Assembly: GCA_025774865.1 (NCBI GenBank)
Contig: JALGZO010000508.1
Coordinates: forward strand, 1 to 6,733
DNA from: a bacterium
GTDB lineage: Bacteria; ARS69
Length of the DNA stretch: 6,733 bases
Direction of reading: 5' to 3'
Shown: positions 1,796 through 6,733 of the stretch, one piece after another
How positions within the stretch are numbered: position 1 is the stretch's first letter
How the letters are laid out: every line of letters starts with the position of its first letter
Made by a program: the position numbers and the translations under genes
Notes under the pieces: generated by a model
What the model was told of the DNA's origin: nothing
Seen by the model: the letters and a program-made list of their open reading frames with translations, nothing else
Database searches by the model: none

Positions 1796-3117
1796 AGACC
1801 GTCGTCGTGTTCGGCTCCGGAAGAGTCGCCAACCCCGCGATCCGGACGCTGCTCCAGACCGGGCATGCGGTCGTCGTCGCGACCGATCAACCGGAGGCCG
1901 CGGGCACGATGATCGATGGGCATCCGCATGGCGAGGTCGTCGAAATCGATGCGACGAACACGTCGCACGTGCGCGACGCCGTGCGCCGCGCCGAGGCCGT
2001 GGTGAGCCTCCTGCCCGTCAGCTTCCACGTCCGCGTGGCCGAAGCGTGCGTCGCGGAACGCCGCCCGTTCGTGACGACGTCCTACGTCTCGGATGAGATG
2101 CGCGCGCTCCACGCCGAAGCGAAACGAGCGGATGTGCTGCTCCTCAACGAGGTCGGCGCGGACCCGGGAATCGATCACATGCTCGTGTCGCGCGCGATCC
2201 ATCGGCTGCAAGGCGGGGGCGCCCACGTCGTCGGAGTCCGATCCGTGTGCGGCGGCATCCCCGCCCCCGAATCAGCCGACAATCCCTTCCGCTACAAGCT
2301 GTCCTGGACCCCGCGCGGGGTGGTCGGTGCCGGCAGGCGTCCGGCCCGCTTTCGCCGCGACTGGGAGATCGTACACGTCGGACCGTACGAGGCCTTCGAC
2401 CATGCGGCCCCCCTCGTGATCGACGACCTCGGCTCGCTCGAGTTTTATCCGAACGGGGACTCTCTGCGCTTCGAGGACGCGTACCGGCTGTTCGAGCCCC
2501 GCACGATGTTCCGGGGCTCGCTCCGTTGGCCGGGGTGGTGCGAAACGTGGTCGGCGCTCTGCCGGATGGGATGGGCGGACCCGGCCCCGGACGCCTCTCT
2601 TCCCGGATCCACCTTCGCAGATGCGGCGCGGCGCGGCGCCGGCGCCTTCGACGGCGCGTCCGCGCGACCGGCCGTCGCCCGGGCGCTGAGACTCCCGGTC
2701 GACCATGCCGTGGTGGAGCGGCTGGCCTGGCTCGGATTGTTCGAGGAACGCCGGGTGCCCGCCGGCGCGCGCAGCCGGGCGGATCTGCTCATCGACCGAA
2801 TGGAAGAGAAGATGCGCTACGGCCCGGGGGAGCGGGACGTCGTCGTGCTGGACCACGAGATCGAGTTCGAGACCGCGGACGGACGGCCGGGGCGATTCCG
2901 CGGGTCCCTGACCGAATACGGCGAGCCGGACGGGGACACGGGGATGTCGCGTCTCGTCGGTCTCCCGGCGGCGTTCACGGCCCGCCGCATCGTGGACGGG
3001 ACGATTCATGACTCGGGAGTTCGGATCCCGACCCGCCCCGGCATCTATGAACCGATTCTCGCGGATCTGGAGGCCGCCGGCGTGACGGAGTTCGTGCACG
3101 ACCCCGGGCGGGGGTGA
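1792..3117 (+). CDS. Saccharopine dehydrogenase (L-glutamate-forming), Lys9/AASS-SDH type
   Basis: Expected reaction: saccharopine + NAD(P)+ + water gives L-glutamate and alpha-aminoadipate semialdehyde, in the cytoplasm. The 441-residue length is typical of a free-standing Lys9-type enzyme. An N-terminal Rossmann fold starts at VVVFGSGRVA (GSGRVA at 8-13), followed by VVSLLP (70-75). The family's catalytic/substrate region contains EVGADPGIDHM (120-130), CGGIPAPE (153-160), NPFRYK (164-169) and SW (171-172), all shared with AASS. The C-terminal part (MRYGPGERD, GLPAAFTARRIVDG, IYEPILADLEAAGV) also follows AASS closely. ATG 1792 is chosen because it overlaps the LKR stop in ATGA and has a GAGG Shine-Dalgarno-like sequence at 1781-1784; an upstream GTG at 1726 would only read through LKR coding sequence. 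Coupled expression with LKR is likely and would supply both halves of the saccharopine pathway. The pathway direction (lysine degradation versus fungal-type synthesis) is not fixed by sequence; degradation is the likelier use for an AASS-like pair. Confidence 0.95.
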   Translation: MKTVVVFGSGRVANPAIRTLLQTGHAVVVATDQPEAAGTMIDGHPHGEVVEIDATNTSHVRDAVRRAEAVVSLLPVSFHVRVAEACVAERRPFVTTSYVSDEMRALHAEAKRADVLLLNEVGADPGIDHMLVSRAIHRLQGGGAHVVGVRSVCGGIPAPESADNPFRYKLSWTPRGVVGAGRRPARFRRDWEIVHVGPYEAFDHAAPLVIDDLGSLEFYPNGDSLRFEDAYRLFEPRTMFRGSLRWPGWCETWSALCRMGWADPAPDASLPGSTFADAARRGAGAFDGASARPAVARALRLPVDHAVVERLAWLGLFEERRVPAGARSRADLLIDRMEEKMRYGPGERDVVVLDHEIEFETADGRPGRFRGSLTEYGEPDGDTGMSRLVGLPAAFTARRIVDGTIHDSGVRIPTRPGIYEPILADLEAAGVTEFVHDPGRG

Positions 3118-3155
3118 TCGGGAGCTCTGGACTCGCCACGGTTTCTTCCGTTCTC

Positions 3156-3186
3156 TTGAACACCCCCCCGGGATTGATGCTAGAAT
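3156..3186 (+). promoter_or_regulatory. Probable sigma70-type promoter for the phosphoesterase gene
   Basis: An extended -10 element, TGC-TAGAAT, lies at 3178-3186 and matches TGnTATAAT at all but one -10 position. A TTGAAC at 3156-3161 is a 4/6 match to TTGACA, with a 19-bp spacer, long but tolerated with an extended -10. Initiation near 3193 would give a leader of about 55 nt before TTG 3249. A short inverted repeat, GCTAG (3179-3183) and CTAGC (3193-3197), overlaps the -10 and the expected start point and could be an operator, though 5-bp arms can arise by chance. The AT-rich -10 stands out in otherwise GC-rich sequence. Confidence 0.55.
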
Positions 3187-3234
3187 TACGGGCTAGCATC
3201 CTGGAAGTGGTCTCAAGTGTGGGCCCGTGCTCTC

Positions 3235-3239
3235 GGGAG
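3235..3239 (+). promoter_or_regulatory. Shine-Dalgarno site supporting the TTG 3249 start
   Basis: GGGAG lies 9 nt before TTG 3249, the codon that puts a canonical signal peptide at the very N-terminus. It decides this start over GTG 3114, ATG 3177 and GTG 3219 in the same frame, which would bury the signal peptide behind extra residues. CCCG at 3224-3227 could pair with CGGG at 3234-3237 and partly mask the site; this is speculative. Confidence 0.55.
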
Positions 3240-3248
3240 TGCCAATCC

Positions 3249-5633
3249 TTGCGCATATTCCTAGCCGCGTGCCTCTTTGCGTTGGTCGCATCCCCGGCGC
3301 ACGCCGAGCGGTTCGTTTACGAGCCCACGTCCGACTTCGATGACGGTCAGCTGGTCAACGGCACTTTCTGGGACTACGGTTCCCAGGAGTGGGCCGAGTT
3401 CCTTCTCTACTTGCGCCTGGGACGAGAAGGAGCCCAAACCTACGACAACTCCCTCCCGTTCGCCGTGCCCGACGTCTCGGAGGGCCAGACGCTCGCCGAC
3501 GTTCGCCTGCGCCTGAACCAGCAGGGCGGCATCATCACGTCCGAGCTCAACGTGGTGATCTCGGCCGCGCTCGACCTCGACCCGCTGGCCACGCCGGCGC
3601 TGAACGGCGAACGGTTCGCCCTCCCCCGCACGAACGCCACGGTCTCCTGGAACATCACGGCGGCCTGGGACTCTTCGAGCCAGCGCATCGCGAAGTGGGA
3701 GGAAACGCCGGATCTGTCGCCGATCCTCAACGAGCTCGCCGCTCAACCCGGCTGGGACGCGAGCCCGAAGGTCGCGTGCTTCTTCCTGGAGGGCGACAAC
3801 GTGACCGGCGAGAACGTCGTTCGCTACGACGACACGCACGGCCCCTACTGGGACGGCGGCAATCCGGGGATCCGGCCGGCCCGGCTCATCGTCTCGGAGA
3901 GCTTCCGCGACGCCTTCTGGGGCAAGGAGCTCCTTTGCCGGCCGAAGCCCTGGGCGATGGAGCTCAACGTGATCCCCCACGAGGACACCGATGCGTACGT
4001 CGAATGGGGCACCGACGGGGTGTCCTTCCCGAACGCCTCGGCTCCCGTGCAGATCGCGGGCGGATCGGCGCACCACTTCGTCATGAGCGGTCTGAGCCCC
4101 GACACGCGCTACTACTACCGGTTGCAGAACCGCCCGCAGGGCGGCCCCGCGTACGAAGCCGGTCCAACCCACTCGTTTCTCACCCTTCCGCTCACGGGGA
4201 GCGAGTCGCGCCTCTGCGTGACCACGGACATTCACGTCACGAACACGACGGTCCTCGGACTCCAGACCCACCTCGACCAGCTACGGACGAGTCTGGACTC
4301 CATGGCGGCCTTCCAGCCGCAGGGGTACCACGTGTGGCTCGACCTCGGAGACCTCGTGGTGATGCGGGCCCAACGGCTGGTCTTCGACGGCGTGGAGGCG
4401 GAGCAGCGCTACCGCCAGGCCCGCGAGTGGATCGAGTCCATCGGACACTCCCTGCCGTTCATTCAGGCGCGCGGCAACCACGAGGAAGTGAACGGGTGGG
4501 ACTATGACGACAGCCCGGACAACATCACGATCTGGTCCGGGAAGAACCTGCTCAAGTACTTCCCGCCCCCGATGCCCGACGAGTACTACTCCGGCAACGT
4601 CAACCCGTTTCCGGACCTCGGCCTACCGGGCAACTACTTCTCGATGCGCCTGGGCAACGTGTCCCTGCGGGGGCTCGACCCGTACCTGTATTCGACCACC
4701 CGTCCCCACAACGCGCACAATCAACTCGGCGGCTCGAAGAACGGCTGGGACTGGGAGCTGGGAGACGACCAGTATCTCTGGCTGTACGACGACCTCGTCC
4801 AGAACCCCGGGATGTACAACGTCGTGTCCATGCACCATCTGACGTCCTGCTACGACCTGGCCGGCTACTGGTACGGTCGTGGTGGCATCGAGGTCGTCGA
4901 CTACGACATCTCCAACCGCCCGACGTTCGAGTGGGGCGGGGCCGATTCGTCAGGTACCGTGGTGATCGGCACCGAACGGCCGGGTTACGTTCACGGCGCC
5001 GTCCACGACATGCTCGTCGCGGCCGGCAATCAAGCCGTCCTCACGGGCCACGACCACTTCTACGCGCGCCAGCAGCTCGACGGGATGTTCTACGCCACCC
5101 TGCCCAAGCCGAACGACACGGGGGAGCACACCGGGGATCTCTGGGGCTTCCGCAACGCCTGCTTCTACCCCCCTCCCGTCACGCTTCCGCTGGAGAACTC
5201 GGGGTTTCTCTCGATCGTCGCCGACAACTCCGCCGCGACGTTCGAGTACATCCAGATGTACCCCACCGAGGGACAGGGCACCGTTCGTGACAGCTTCACG
5301 CTGTTGCCACCGGTTCCCACGGACGCCGGCGTCACGGACGCGGCCAATGTGCGAAGCGTCGCGATCCGTTCGGTCTCCCCGAACCCCGCGCGCTCGTCGT
5401 CACAGGTCGAATACGAGATCGCGCGCCGCGGACCGGTCCGGCTCTCCGTGTACGATGCCGGCGGCCGCCTGGTACGTCGCCTCGTCGACGACGATCTCGC
5501 CCCGGGGATTCACCGCGCTCGCTGGGACGGTCGCGATCGTCACGGCGAGCGGGTAGCCGCAGGCGTGTACTTTGCCAAGCTCGTGACGTCGCGGGATCGC
5601 ACCGACTCGGTGAAGATGATCGTTCTGAGGTAG
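3249..5633 (+). CDS. Secreted calcineurin-like metallophosphoesterase with FlgD-like C-terminal domain
   Basis: From TTG 3249 the protein has 794 residues. Residues 1-19 are a Sec signal peptide (Arg, hydrophobic core, cleavage after AHA-19). Residues about 20-225 form a beta-rich region resembling secreted carbohydrate-binding-like/DNRLRE-type modules, including VSWNITAAW and PGWDASPKVACFFLEG. Residues about 230-314 resemble the Fn3-like N-domain of purple acid phosphatases (VEWGTDG, GLSPDTRYYYRL). Residues about 320-660 are the catalytic domain, with all five motifs: D327-I-H329, GD368, GN410-H411-E412, H529-H530 and GH601-D-H603, so a dinuclear metal centre should form. Motif I is DxH and motif II is GDLV without the PAP tyrosine, so a generic metallophosphoesterase is likelier than a true purple acid phosphatase. 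Residues about 705-794 (SPNP at 710-713 to KMIVLR) are a FlgD-like/T9SS-type-A-like domain, implying surface attachment or secretion. The substrate is not predictable. The gene appears to have its own promoter. Confidence 0.9.
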   Translation: MRIFLAACLFALVASPAHAERFVYEPTSDFDDGQLVNGTFWDYGSQEWAEFLLYLRLGREGAQTYDNSLPFAVPDVSEGQTLADVRLRLNQQGGIITSELNVVISAALDLDPLATPALNGERFALPRTNATVSWNITAAWDSSSQRIAKWEETPDLSPILNELAAQPGWDASPKVACFFLEGDNVTGENVVRYDDTHGPYWDGGNPGIRPARLIVSESFRDAFWGKELLCRPKPWAMELNVIPHEDTDAYVEWGTDGVSFPNASAPVQIAGGSAHHFVMSGLSPDTRYYYRLQNRPQGGPAYEAGPTHSFLTLPLTGSESRLCVTTDIHVTNTTVLGLQTHLDQLRTSLDSMAAFQPQGYHVWLDLGDLVVMRAQRLVFDGVEAEQRYRQAREWIESIGHSLPFIQARGNHEEVNGWDYDDSPDNITIWSGKNLLKYFPPPMPDEYYSGNVNPFPDLGLPGNYFSMRLGNVSLRGLDPYLYSTTRPHNAHNQLGGSKNGWDWELGDDQYLWLYDDLVQNPGMYNVVSMHHLTSCYDLAGYWYGRGGIEVVDYDISNRPTFEWGGADSSGTVVIGTERPGYVHGAVHDMLVAAGNQAVLTGHDHFYARQQLDGMFYATLPKPNDTGEHTGDLWGFRNACFYPPPVTLPLENSGFLSIVADNSAATFEYIQMYPTEGQGTVRDSFTLLPPVPTDAGVTDAANVRSVAIRSVSPNPARSSSQVEYEIARRGPVRLSVYDAGGRLVRRLVDDDLAPGIHRARWDGRDRHGERVAAGVYFAKLVTSRDRTDSVKMIVLR

Positions 5634-5643
5634 GGAGACCGAC

Positions 5644-5777
5644 GGAGAGCCGAGGTCCGGGAGTCCTCTCCCCGCGAGATACGTTGCCCGGTCCCTTTCG
5701 GGCTCAATGCAATCCCGTCTTGAGGGTGGGCCCGGTCAACAACTCGCGTTGAGAGGACTCCCGGACCTCGGCTCTCC
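5644..5777. repeat. 134-nt element with perfect 27-bp terminal inverted repeats
   Basis: The left arm (5644-5670, beginning GGAGAGCCGAGG) is the exact reverse complement of the right arm (5751-5777), all 27 positions matching. Pairing continues inward: CGCGAG (5673-5678) with CTCGCG (5743-5748), GTTG (5683-5686) with CAAC (5737-5740), CCGG (5688-5691) with CCGG (5732-5735), CCC (5693-5695) with GGG (5728-5730), and CTCAA (5703-5707) with TTGAG (5720-5724), leaving a 12-nt apical loop. The whole element can thus fold into one long imperfect hairpin of about 49 bp. It starts 10 nt after the phosphoesterase stop. There is no T-tract after it, so it is not a standard intrinsic terminator, and I see no clear target-site duplication. 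It could be a MITE-like element, a structured RNA or a 3'-end processing hairpin. The inverted repeat is certain; its nature is open. Confidence 0.95.
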
Positions 5778-5843
5778 AGCGGATTCGGAGCAGGGCGTCG
5801 AGATCCCGATCCCGGGAACTCCGTTTCTCCGCCGGGCCACCCC

Positions 5844-5900: not shown

Positions 5901-6733
5901 ATGCCCTCCCCTTCCCACGACGAACTCCTCCAGGCCCTTCGAACAGTTTCTTTCGAGTCCTCTTCGAAGGATGTGGTCGCGTCCGAGATCGCGCGGAACG
6001 TCTCTCATCGAAACGGACGGGGCTCATTGACGCTCGAGGTCCCCAGCCCCGGGTATCCGCGGATCGAGGAACTGACGCAGCAGGTCCGCGATGCCCTTCT
6101 CAGTGTCGCCGGCGTCGAGTCGGTCGACGTCGAGACCACCTGGCGAGTGCGCGCAGCCGAGACGCGGCACGCCGCCATCCACGGGGTCAAGAACGTGATC
6201 GCGGTGGCGAGCGGCAAGGGAGGTGTCGGCAAGTCGACGGTGGCCGCGAACCTCGCAGTCGGGCTCGCGCGACTCGGCGCGAGCACCGGACTCGCCGACC
6301 TCGACATCTACGGACCGAGCGTTCCTCTCGTGATGGGACACGCGGACGAGCCGCGGGTGACCGGGGACGAGGCGCTCGTTCCGTCGGAAGCGCACGGCGT
6401 GAAGTTCCTCTCGATGGGACAGCTCGTGCCCGGCGACCGACCCGTCCTCTGGCGCGGCCCCATGCTGCACAAGATGGTGAGTCAGTTCATGAGCGCGGAC
6501 TGGGGTGAGCTGGACTACTTGGTTCTCGACCTGCCGCCCGGCACAGGAGACGTGCAACTCACCGTCACCCAGACCGTCCCCGTCGCCGGTGCAGTCGTCG
6601 TGACGACCCCGCAGGAGATCGCACTCATCGACGCGCGCAAGGGCCTCACGATGTTTCGCGACAACCAGATGCCGATCCTCGGGGTCGTCGAGAACTTCGC
6701 CTGGTACCAGTGCGGCAAGTGCGGGAAGCGGCA
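5901..6733 (+). CDS. mrp: Mrp/ApbC/NBP35-family Fe-S cluster carrier ATPase, 3'-truncated
   Basis: The frame is open to the window edge and shows the first 277 residues; full-length bacterial Mrp proteins are about 350-370. Residues about 1-85 form an N-terminal MIP18/DUF59-type domain (VPSPGYPRIEELTQQV, GVESVDVE). The P-loop NTPase follows: deviant Walker A GKGGVGKST (105-113, both signature lysines K106 and K111), DLDIYGPS (133-140), RGPM, and the Walker B/switch block DLPPGTGD (210-217). The family CxxC, used to bind a bridging [4Fe-4S] cluster between subunits, is C271-G-K-C274, preceded by VVENFAWYQ where many homologues have ENMS. The family binds Fe-S clusters and hands them to apoproteins in the cytoplasm, with ATP hydrolysis needed. 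ATG 5901 is preceded by AGGAG at 5892-5896, spacing 4 nt. A TTGACA promoter lies upstream, so expression is probably independent of the phosphoesterase gene. Assignment is firm. Confidence 0.96.
   Translation, partial: MPSPSHDELLQALRTVSFESSSKDVVASEIARNVSHRNGRGSLTLEVPSPGYPRIEELTQQVRDALLSVAGVESVDVETTWRVRAAETRHAAIHGVKNVIAVASGKGGVGKSTVAANLAVGLARLGASTGLADLDIYGPSVPLVMGHADEPRVTGDEALVPSEAHGVKFLSMGQLVPGDRPVLWRGPMLHKMVSQFMSADWGELDYLVLDLPPGTGDVQLTVTQTVPVAGAVVVTTPQEIALIDARKGLTMFRDNQMPILGVVENFAWYQCGKCGKR

Follow-up and report, generated by a model that had tools for sequence, protein, structure and literature searches.

The window, the whole 6,733-nt stretch of DNA that was analysed, is contig C512 of a 4.7-Mb genome bin of 785 contigs (92.65% complete, 8.3% contamination). 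It holds a long hairpin between two genes that run in the same direction. The hairpin begins at 5644, 10 nt past the TAG that ends a metallophosphatase gene, whose product has a purple acid phosphatase-like N domain and a Metallophos domain, with a FlgD_ig domain at its C-terminus. The features are as follows:

3114-5633, plus strand: metallophosphatase gene upstream of the hairpin (start uncertain, 3114 to 3282; TAG stop at 5631-5633)
5639-5782, no strand assigned: whole inverted repeat, 40-nt arms at 90% (5639-5678 / 5743-5782)
5644-5670, plus strand: left arm of the outer stem (27 nt, perfect), exact reverse complement of the right arm
5673-5748, minus strand (taken as the folded strand): conserved family A core with inner stem CGCGAG/CTCGCG, 89-92% identity with two copies on contig C439
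5751-5777, plus strand: right arm of the outer stem (27 nt, perfect), exact reverse complement of the left arm
5901-6731, plus strand: Mrp/NBP35-type P-loop ATPase gene downstream of the hairpin (start uncertain; open at the window end)

The perfect 27-bp inverted repeat described in the original prediction is present, with 27 of 27 positions complementary across 80 intervening nucleotides, and the 40-nt, 90% repeat that contains it is the longest in the window. A single hairpin of about 49 bp had also been proposed. The single rod holds up when the 134-nt element is folded alone (MFE fold, -96.9 kcal/mol); the number of pairs depends on the model and is 53 in the MFE structure of this copy. 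With its flanks, the element has a z score of -8.3 as RNA and -9.5 as DNA relative to dinucleotide shuffles, none of which matched its fold as either RNA or DNA. Neither strand contains a T-tract or a terminator-like site between 5550 and 5950, in agreement with the reported lack of a T-tract. Two alternative apical pairings had been pointed out (5703-5707/5720-5724 and 5699-5702/5714-5717); both can be drawn in the window, but they are unsupported because the two C439 homologues retain neither; there, the aligned apical positions read TTGCG and CGAG/CGAA.

Copies and related families in the source genome

Searching the genome for further copies, as had been suggested, showed that the hairpin is not single-copy: two homologues on C439 join the window copy to make family A, with three members. 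The C439 copies face each other with about 200 bp between them, and one lies directly 3' of a ZIP transporter gene that ends in TAG. Across the 75-nt core, the window and C439 copies are 89-92% identical, while their outer arms differ yet pair. Since homologous copies have the core in common but not the arms, a chimera in the assembly is ruled out. The earlier description of identical arms around a diverged interior is reversed when copies are compared: it is the interior that is conserved, and the two arms change in concert, so that the identity of the arms reflects continued pairing instead of a recent insertion. The window copy shows no target duplication, and it has no end in common with other copies. 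One further pattern match, on C573, was dismissed as lacking a hairpin.

We found four more families of the same build in the source genome, designated B, C1, C2 and D. A covariance model built from family A (R1) matched a hairpin on C216, a family B copy that has this build but another core, and a broader model (R2) matched hairpins on C28 and C72; these matches were made mainly through the stems. DNA search with the family B core returned about 15 copies. The 12 copies of this family that were aligned have in common a core of about 75 nt, carried on stems 15-35 bp long; compared between copies, the stem sequences are about 50% identical (median). An opposite-strand family B model led to family C1, its facing partner C2, and family D. 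The family B model (R3) did not find family A, so the kinship of A with B to D rests on their shared build and some similarity of the arms. Together the families, at least five in number, comprise about 50 copies, partial copies included (3 of A, about 16 of B, about 28 of C1 and C2, and 6 of D). Nearly all long perfect hairpins with loops of 50-90 nt in the sampled own-genome contigs, which were the scope of the hairpin census, belong to these families.

The arms are perfect in several copies (27/27, 34/34 and 32/32), and an indel that separates C313 from C160 is present in both arms. The copies on C235 and C703 are deletion derivatives that fuse the outer arms of both hairpins. As repeats would be expected to do, many copies fall at the ends of contigs, and the neighbours of the copies are ordinary chromosomal genes. 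Two pairs of near-duplicate loci (L108/L106 on C160/C313 and L258/L297 on C729/C235), in which the hairpin arms are unlike or a deletion lies between the hairpins, suggest that the bin, with its 8.3% contamination, holds two strains. Separately, a 26-bp tandem repeat, GTTGACRCCGCTGCGGGCGTACTGC, occurs in 6-7 copies between two facing B hairpins (L054, G000:C72, 13617-13787), and it is also found beside other hairpins of this genome (L052 4354-4454, L049 14813-14845, L308 and L309).

In four other genomes of the phylum, all of other genera, families A to D were not found save for one weak match to R3 in G002. This match, the sole one (E 0.0005) in the 905 kb from relatives, is a long hairpin standing alone, built in the same way around a different core (L324 15327-15478, G002:C190). 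The relatives carry other hairpin repeats, some of them CTAG-ended, and families with both CTAG termini and conserved terminal repeats occur in G002 and G003. For example, a MITE-like family of about 180-210 bp in G002 ends in CTAGCCTGCATTTCTCACCAGGC (L315, L318, L323, L324, L328 and L329), and a related element is found at L336 in G003, which is of another genus. G002 also has a repeat family with CTAGCCCGGACTACTCATGAATGATC ends and a second that is a 91-bp hairpin, CCACCGGACGGGC..., which occurs inside a CTAGCCCGGACTACTCATGAATGATC-ended element as well (L326 2770-2927 and 10832-11015; L315 16789-16879; L317 5-95). Plasmids, phages and viral contigs gave no match, and the family B core matches in these sets failed the hairpin filter. 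A GTDB-wide pattern scan with the family B core gave at least 113 matches; among those listed, all were judged to be chance, as the flanking stem was missing. Rfam yielded no bacterial family, only animal microRNA models far below cut-offs.

Covariation and strand bias of the stems

Compensatory change, proposed earlier as the test of a structured RNA, was seen in families A and B. Family A has double changes at 12 of 52 consensus pairs, from only three sequences, and family B at 22 of 38-39 pairs (11-12 copies). For family B, none of 500 shuffles reached the observed covariation, and every slid register was far lower. The fold therefore seems to be preserved, because the arms change between copies while staying paired.

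The two strands do not pair equally well. In family B, 95.9% of cells are paired on the antisense strand compared with 90.3% on the gene-sense strand (from alignments of 12 and of 11 sequences), and one-sided stem changes give A.C on the sense strand, hence G.U on the antisense strand. Across the first 22 stem pairs of all families, read as antisense, G.U exceeds A.C by 22 to 2 (p 4e-5); this count uses a strand-symmetric rule (an earlier rule gives 33:4), and its p value is approximate because related copies have some changes in common. Family A has no G.U and no A.C within its first 22 stem pairs. Its strand is therefore assigned by analogy with family B, from the position relative to the gene, and on these grounds the minus strand is presumed to be the one that folds.

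In the spacer beside C1 hairpins, C>T and G>A changes are about equal (32 vs 33), whereas within the hairpin they stand at 20:8; the strand skew is therefore not a regional mutation bias. Most one-sided changes in C1, a family of closely related copies, occur in one copy alone; selection thus seems to operate on copies already in residence. Given the excess of G.U over A.C in the stems and the unbiased flanking spacer, selection seems to act in place on a single-stranded fold, although G.T in single-stranded DNA would be indistinguishable from G.U in RNA by this signature. As for the RNA reading of the original prediction, compensatory change and the G.U/A.C strand bias speak for it, while the suggested role in ending or protecting the upstream mRNA is not borne out, and in family B it is the antisense strand that pairs better.

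Placement at stop codons and interpretation

A codon model was used to call genes. Of the 30 copies that have a callable neighbour (C381b and C183b left out), 25 have a stop codon on the antisense-3' side of the hairpin. TAG makes up 14 of 21 near stops, compared with 33 of 123 genes overall (p 7e-4). Many copies lie between convergent genes, an arrangement found in only 1 of 37 gaps of at least 60 nt on unselected contigs. C units end in a common inverted terminal motif, GTGTTCCGTCTCGAAAGTC, directly after CTA, and their ends are adjoined by TA; the stop TAG is thus composed of the target TA and the G of the element. Such ends fit insertion at TA within CTAG, which is known for IS630.

These hairpins make up several families of a dispersed stem-loop repeat, in which the cores are conserved and the stems covary, and they are located mainly behind stop codons. 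The repeat is probably mobile and non-autonomous. We favour the view that the window element is a family A copy of this repeat, which spread non-autonomously and whose hairpins were then kept folded. This retains part of the MITE-like reading proposed originally, namely the copies at other sites, the related families and the terminal motif of the C unit; it departs from it in that the arms are not conserved terminal repeats and the window copy shows no target duplication. Non-autonomous repeats would spread to TAG or CTAG stops between genes, often inserting as two facing hairpins (about 450-500 bp) between convergent genes, and each hairpin, once inserted, would be maintained by selection in the form of a folded single strand. 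Transcripts entering the 3' end of a gene from downstream would fold into a stiff rod, which would stop, stall or process them through polymerase stalling, Rho or RNase III, and the gene would thereby be shielded from antisense or read-through transcription. Judging from sequence, blocking or processing such transcripts is the most likely action of the hairpin, and we offer it tentatively. It is rather unlikely that the hairpins amount to a new genome-wide 3'-end element, that is, antisense-strand hairpins with a constant core and freely varying stems, transposed to stops and kept by the host against opposing transcription.

A purely selfish MITE-type element (e.g., Tc1/IS630, with a TA target in CTAG), with hairpins serving its own movement only, is a less probable explanation that still has to be taken seriously. 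C-unit ends regenerating the TAG stop after CTA, the excess of TAG at hairpins, the CTAG-ended families with conserved terminal repeats in G002 and G003, and the absence of copies from other genera would all be in keeping with it. However, among near-identical C1 copies the private changes produce G.U and not A.C, which is unexpected of dead inserts, and the arms of A and B are not conserved ends. Conserved terminal inverted repeats, by which MITEs are recognized, were found for the C unit only. No transposase was identified in a search with PF01797, the RAYT domain (Y1_Tnp), which was not found in the source genome at its 92.65% completeness, and the missing target duplication at the window copy also counts against a purely selfish element.

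Two other explanations are improbable. One is a strand-specific single-stranded DNA site, attC-like or IS200/IS605-like, in which the antisense strand folds and is bound by a recombinase. The position behind the stop and the bottom-strand structure resemble attC topology, but this recombination-site reading is disfavoured because a Y1_Tnp protein is missing from the genome and the attC boxes (RYYYAAC / GTTRRRY) are absent at the ends of 12 copies; moreover, the apex is conserved and not the ends, and the neighbours are ordinary chromosomal genes. The other is a hairpin in the 3'-UTR of the sense transcript, acting as a terminator or as a protector of the upstream gene's mRNA 3' end, as would suit its distance of 10 nt from the stop and its very stable fold. 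Against this, a U-tract is absent in either direction, the sense strand of family B has A.C mismatches, pyrimidine loops and worse pairing, and such a hairpin accompanies only about 50 of several thousand genes. The strand data tell against both this explanation and a further one, template switching at the DNA level between the arms; the latter, which would keep the repeat perfect without selection and could produce the perfect arms and the C313/C160 indel, is very improbable since pure DNA arm-correction would give parity of G.U and A.C in fresh one-sided changes, not 22:2.

Dispersed palindromes of bacteria are usually read as selfish DNA or as terminators, which are hard to tell apart. Here, the many copies with unlike arms and a strand signature set against neutral spacer offer a direct test of whether a fold is retained in place. 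If the antisense reading is true, it would link the spread of a repeat to the control of opposing transcription at gene ends.

Comparison with known systems

MITEs of Tc1/IS630 type (NEMIS/Correia, RUP and others) are short, non-coding elements with inverted repeats. The C units resemble them in having common inverted ends after TA in CTAG; in contrast, the A, B and D hairpins are not conserved ends of an element, and the arms of families A and B vary. The attC sites of integrons are hairpins 3' of a stop codon with bottom-strand structure, and our hairpins likewise lie behind stop codons with the bottom strand kept structured. Unlike attC, they lack end boxes, have a conserved apex instead and do not form cassette arrays. 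The skipping-rope RNA (RF02924) is a long bacterial hairpin RNA and similar in that respect, but there was no bacterial Rfam match here.

A limited literature search did not find repeats with a conserved core, free stems and a measured strand-specific pairing signature; repeated stem-loop families in bacterial genomes as such are already known (PMC2267715, PMC2817692). One such kind is the REP/BIME elements with RAYT transposases (PMC2817692). These are intergenic palindromes behind genes. Our hairpins share the position behind genes and the alternating orientation in pairs; REPs are short with conserved stems, and a RAYT partner was not found here. The SLS families are reported as intergenic dispersed bacterial repeats with a common predicted fold and are thought to act as RNA (PMC2267715). 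The repeats described here likewise have several homologous intergenic copies and a common fold, and they differ from the reported SLS families in that the arms vary and covary around a conserved core and that a strand signature was measured.
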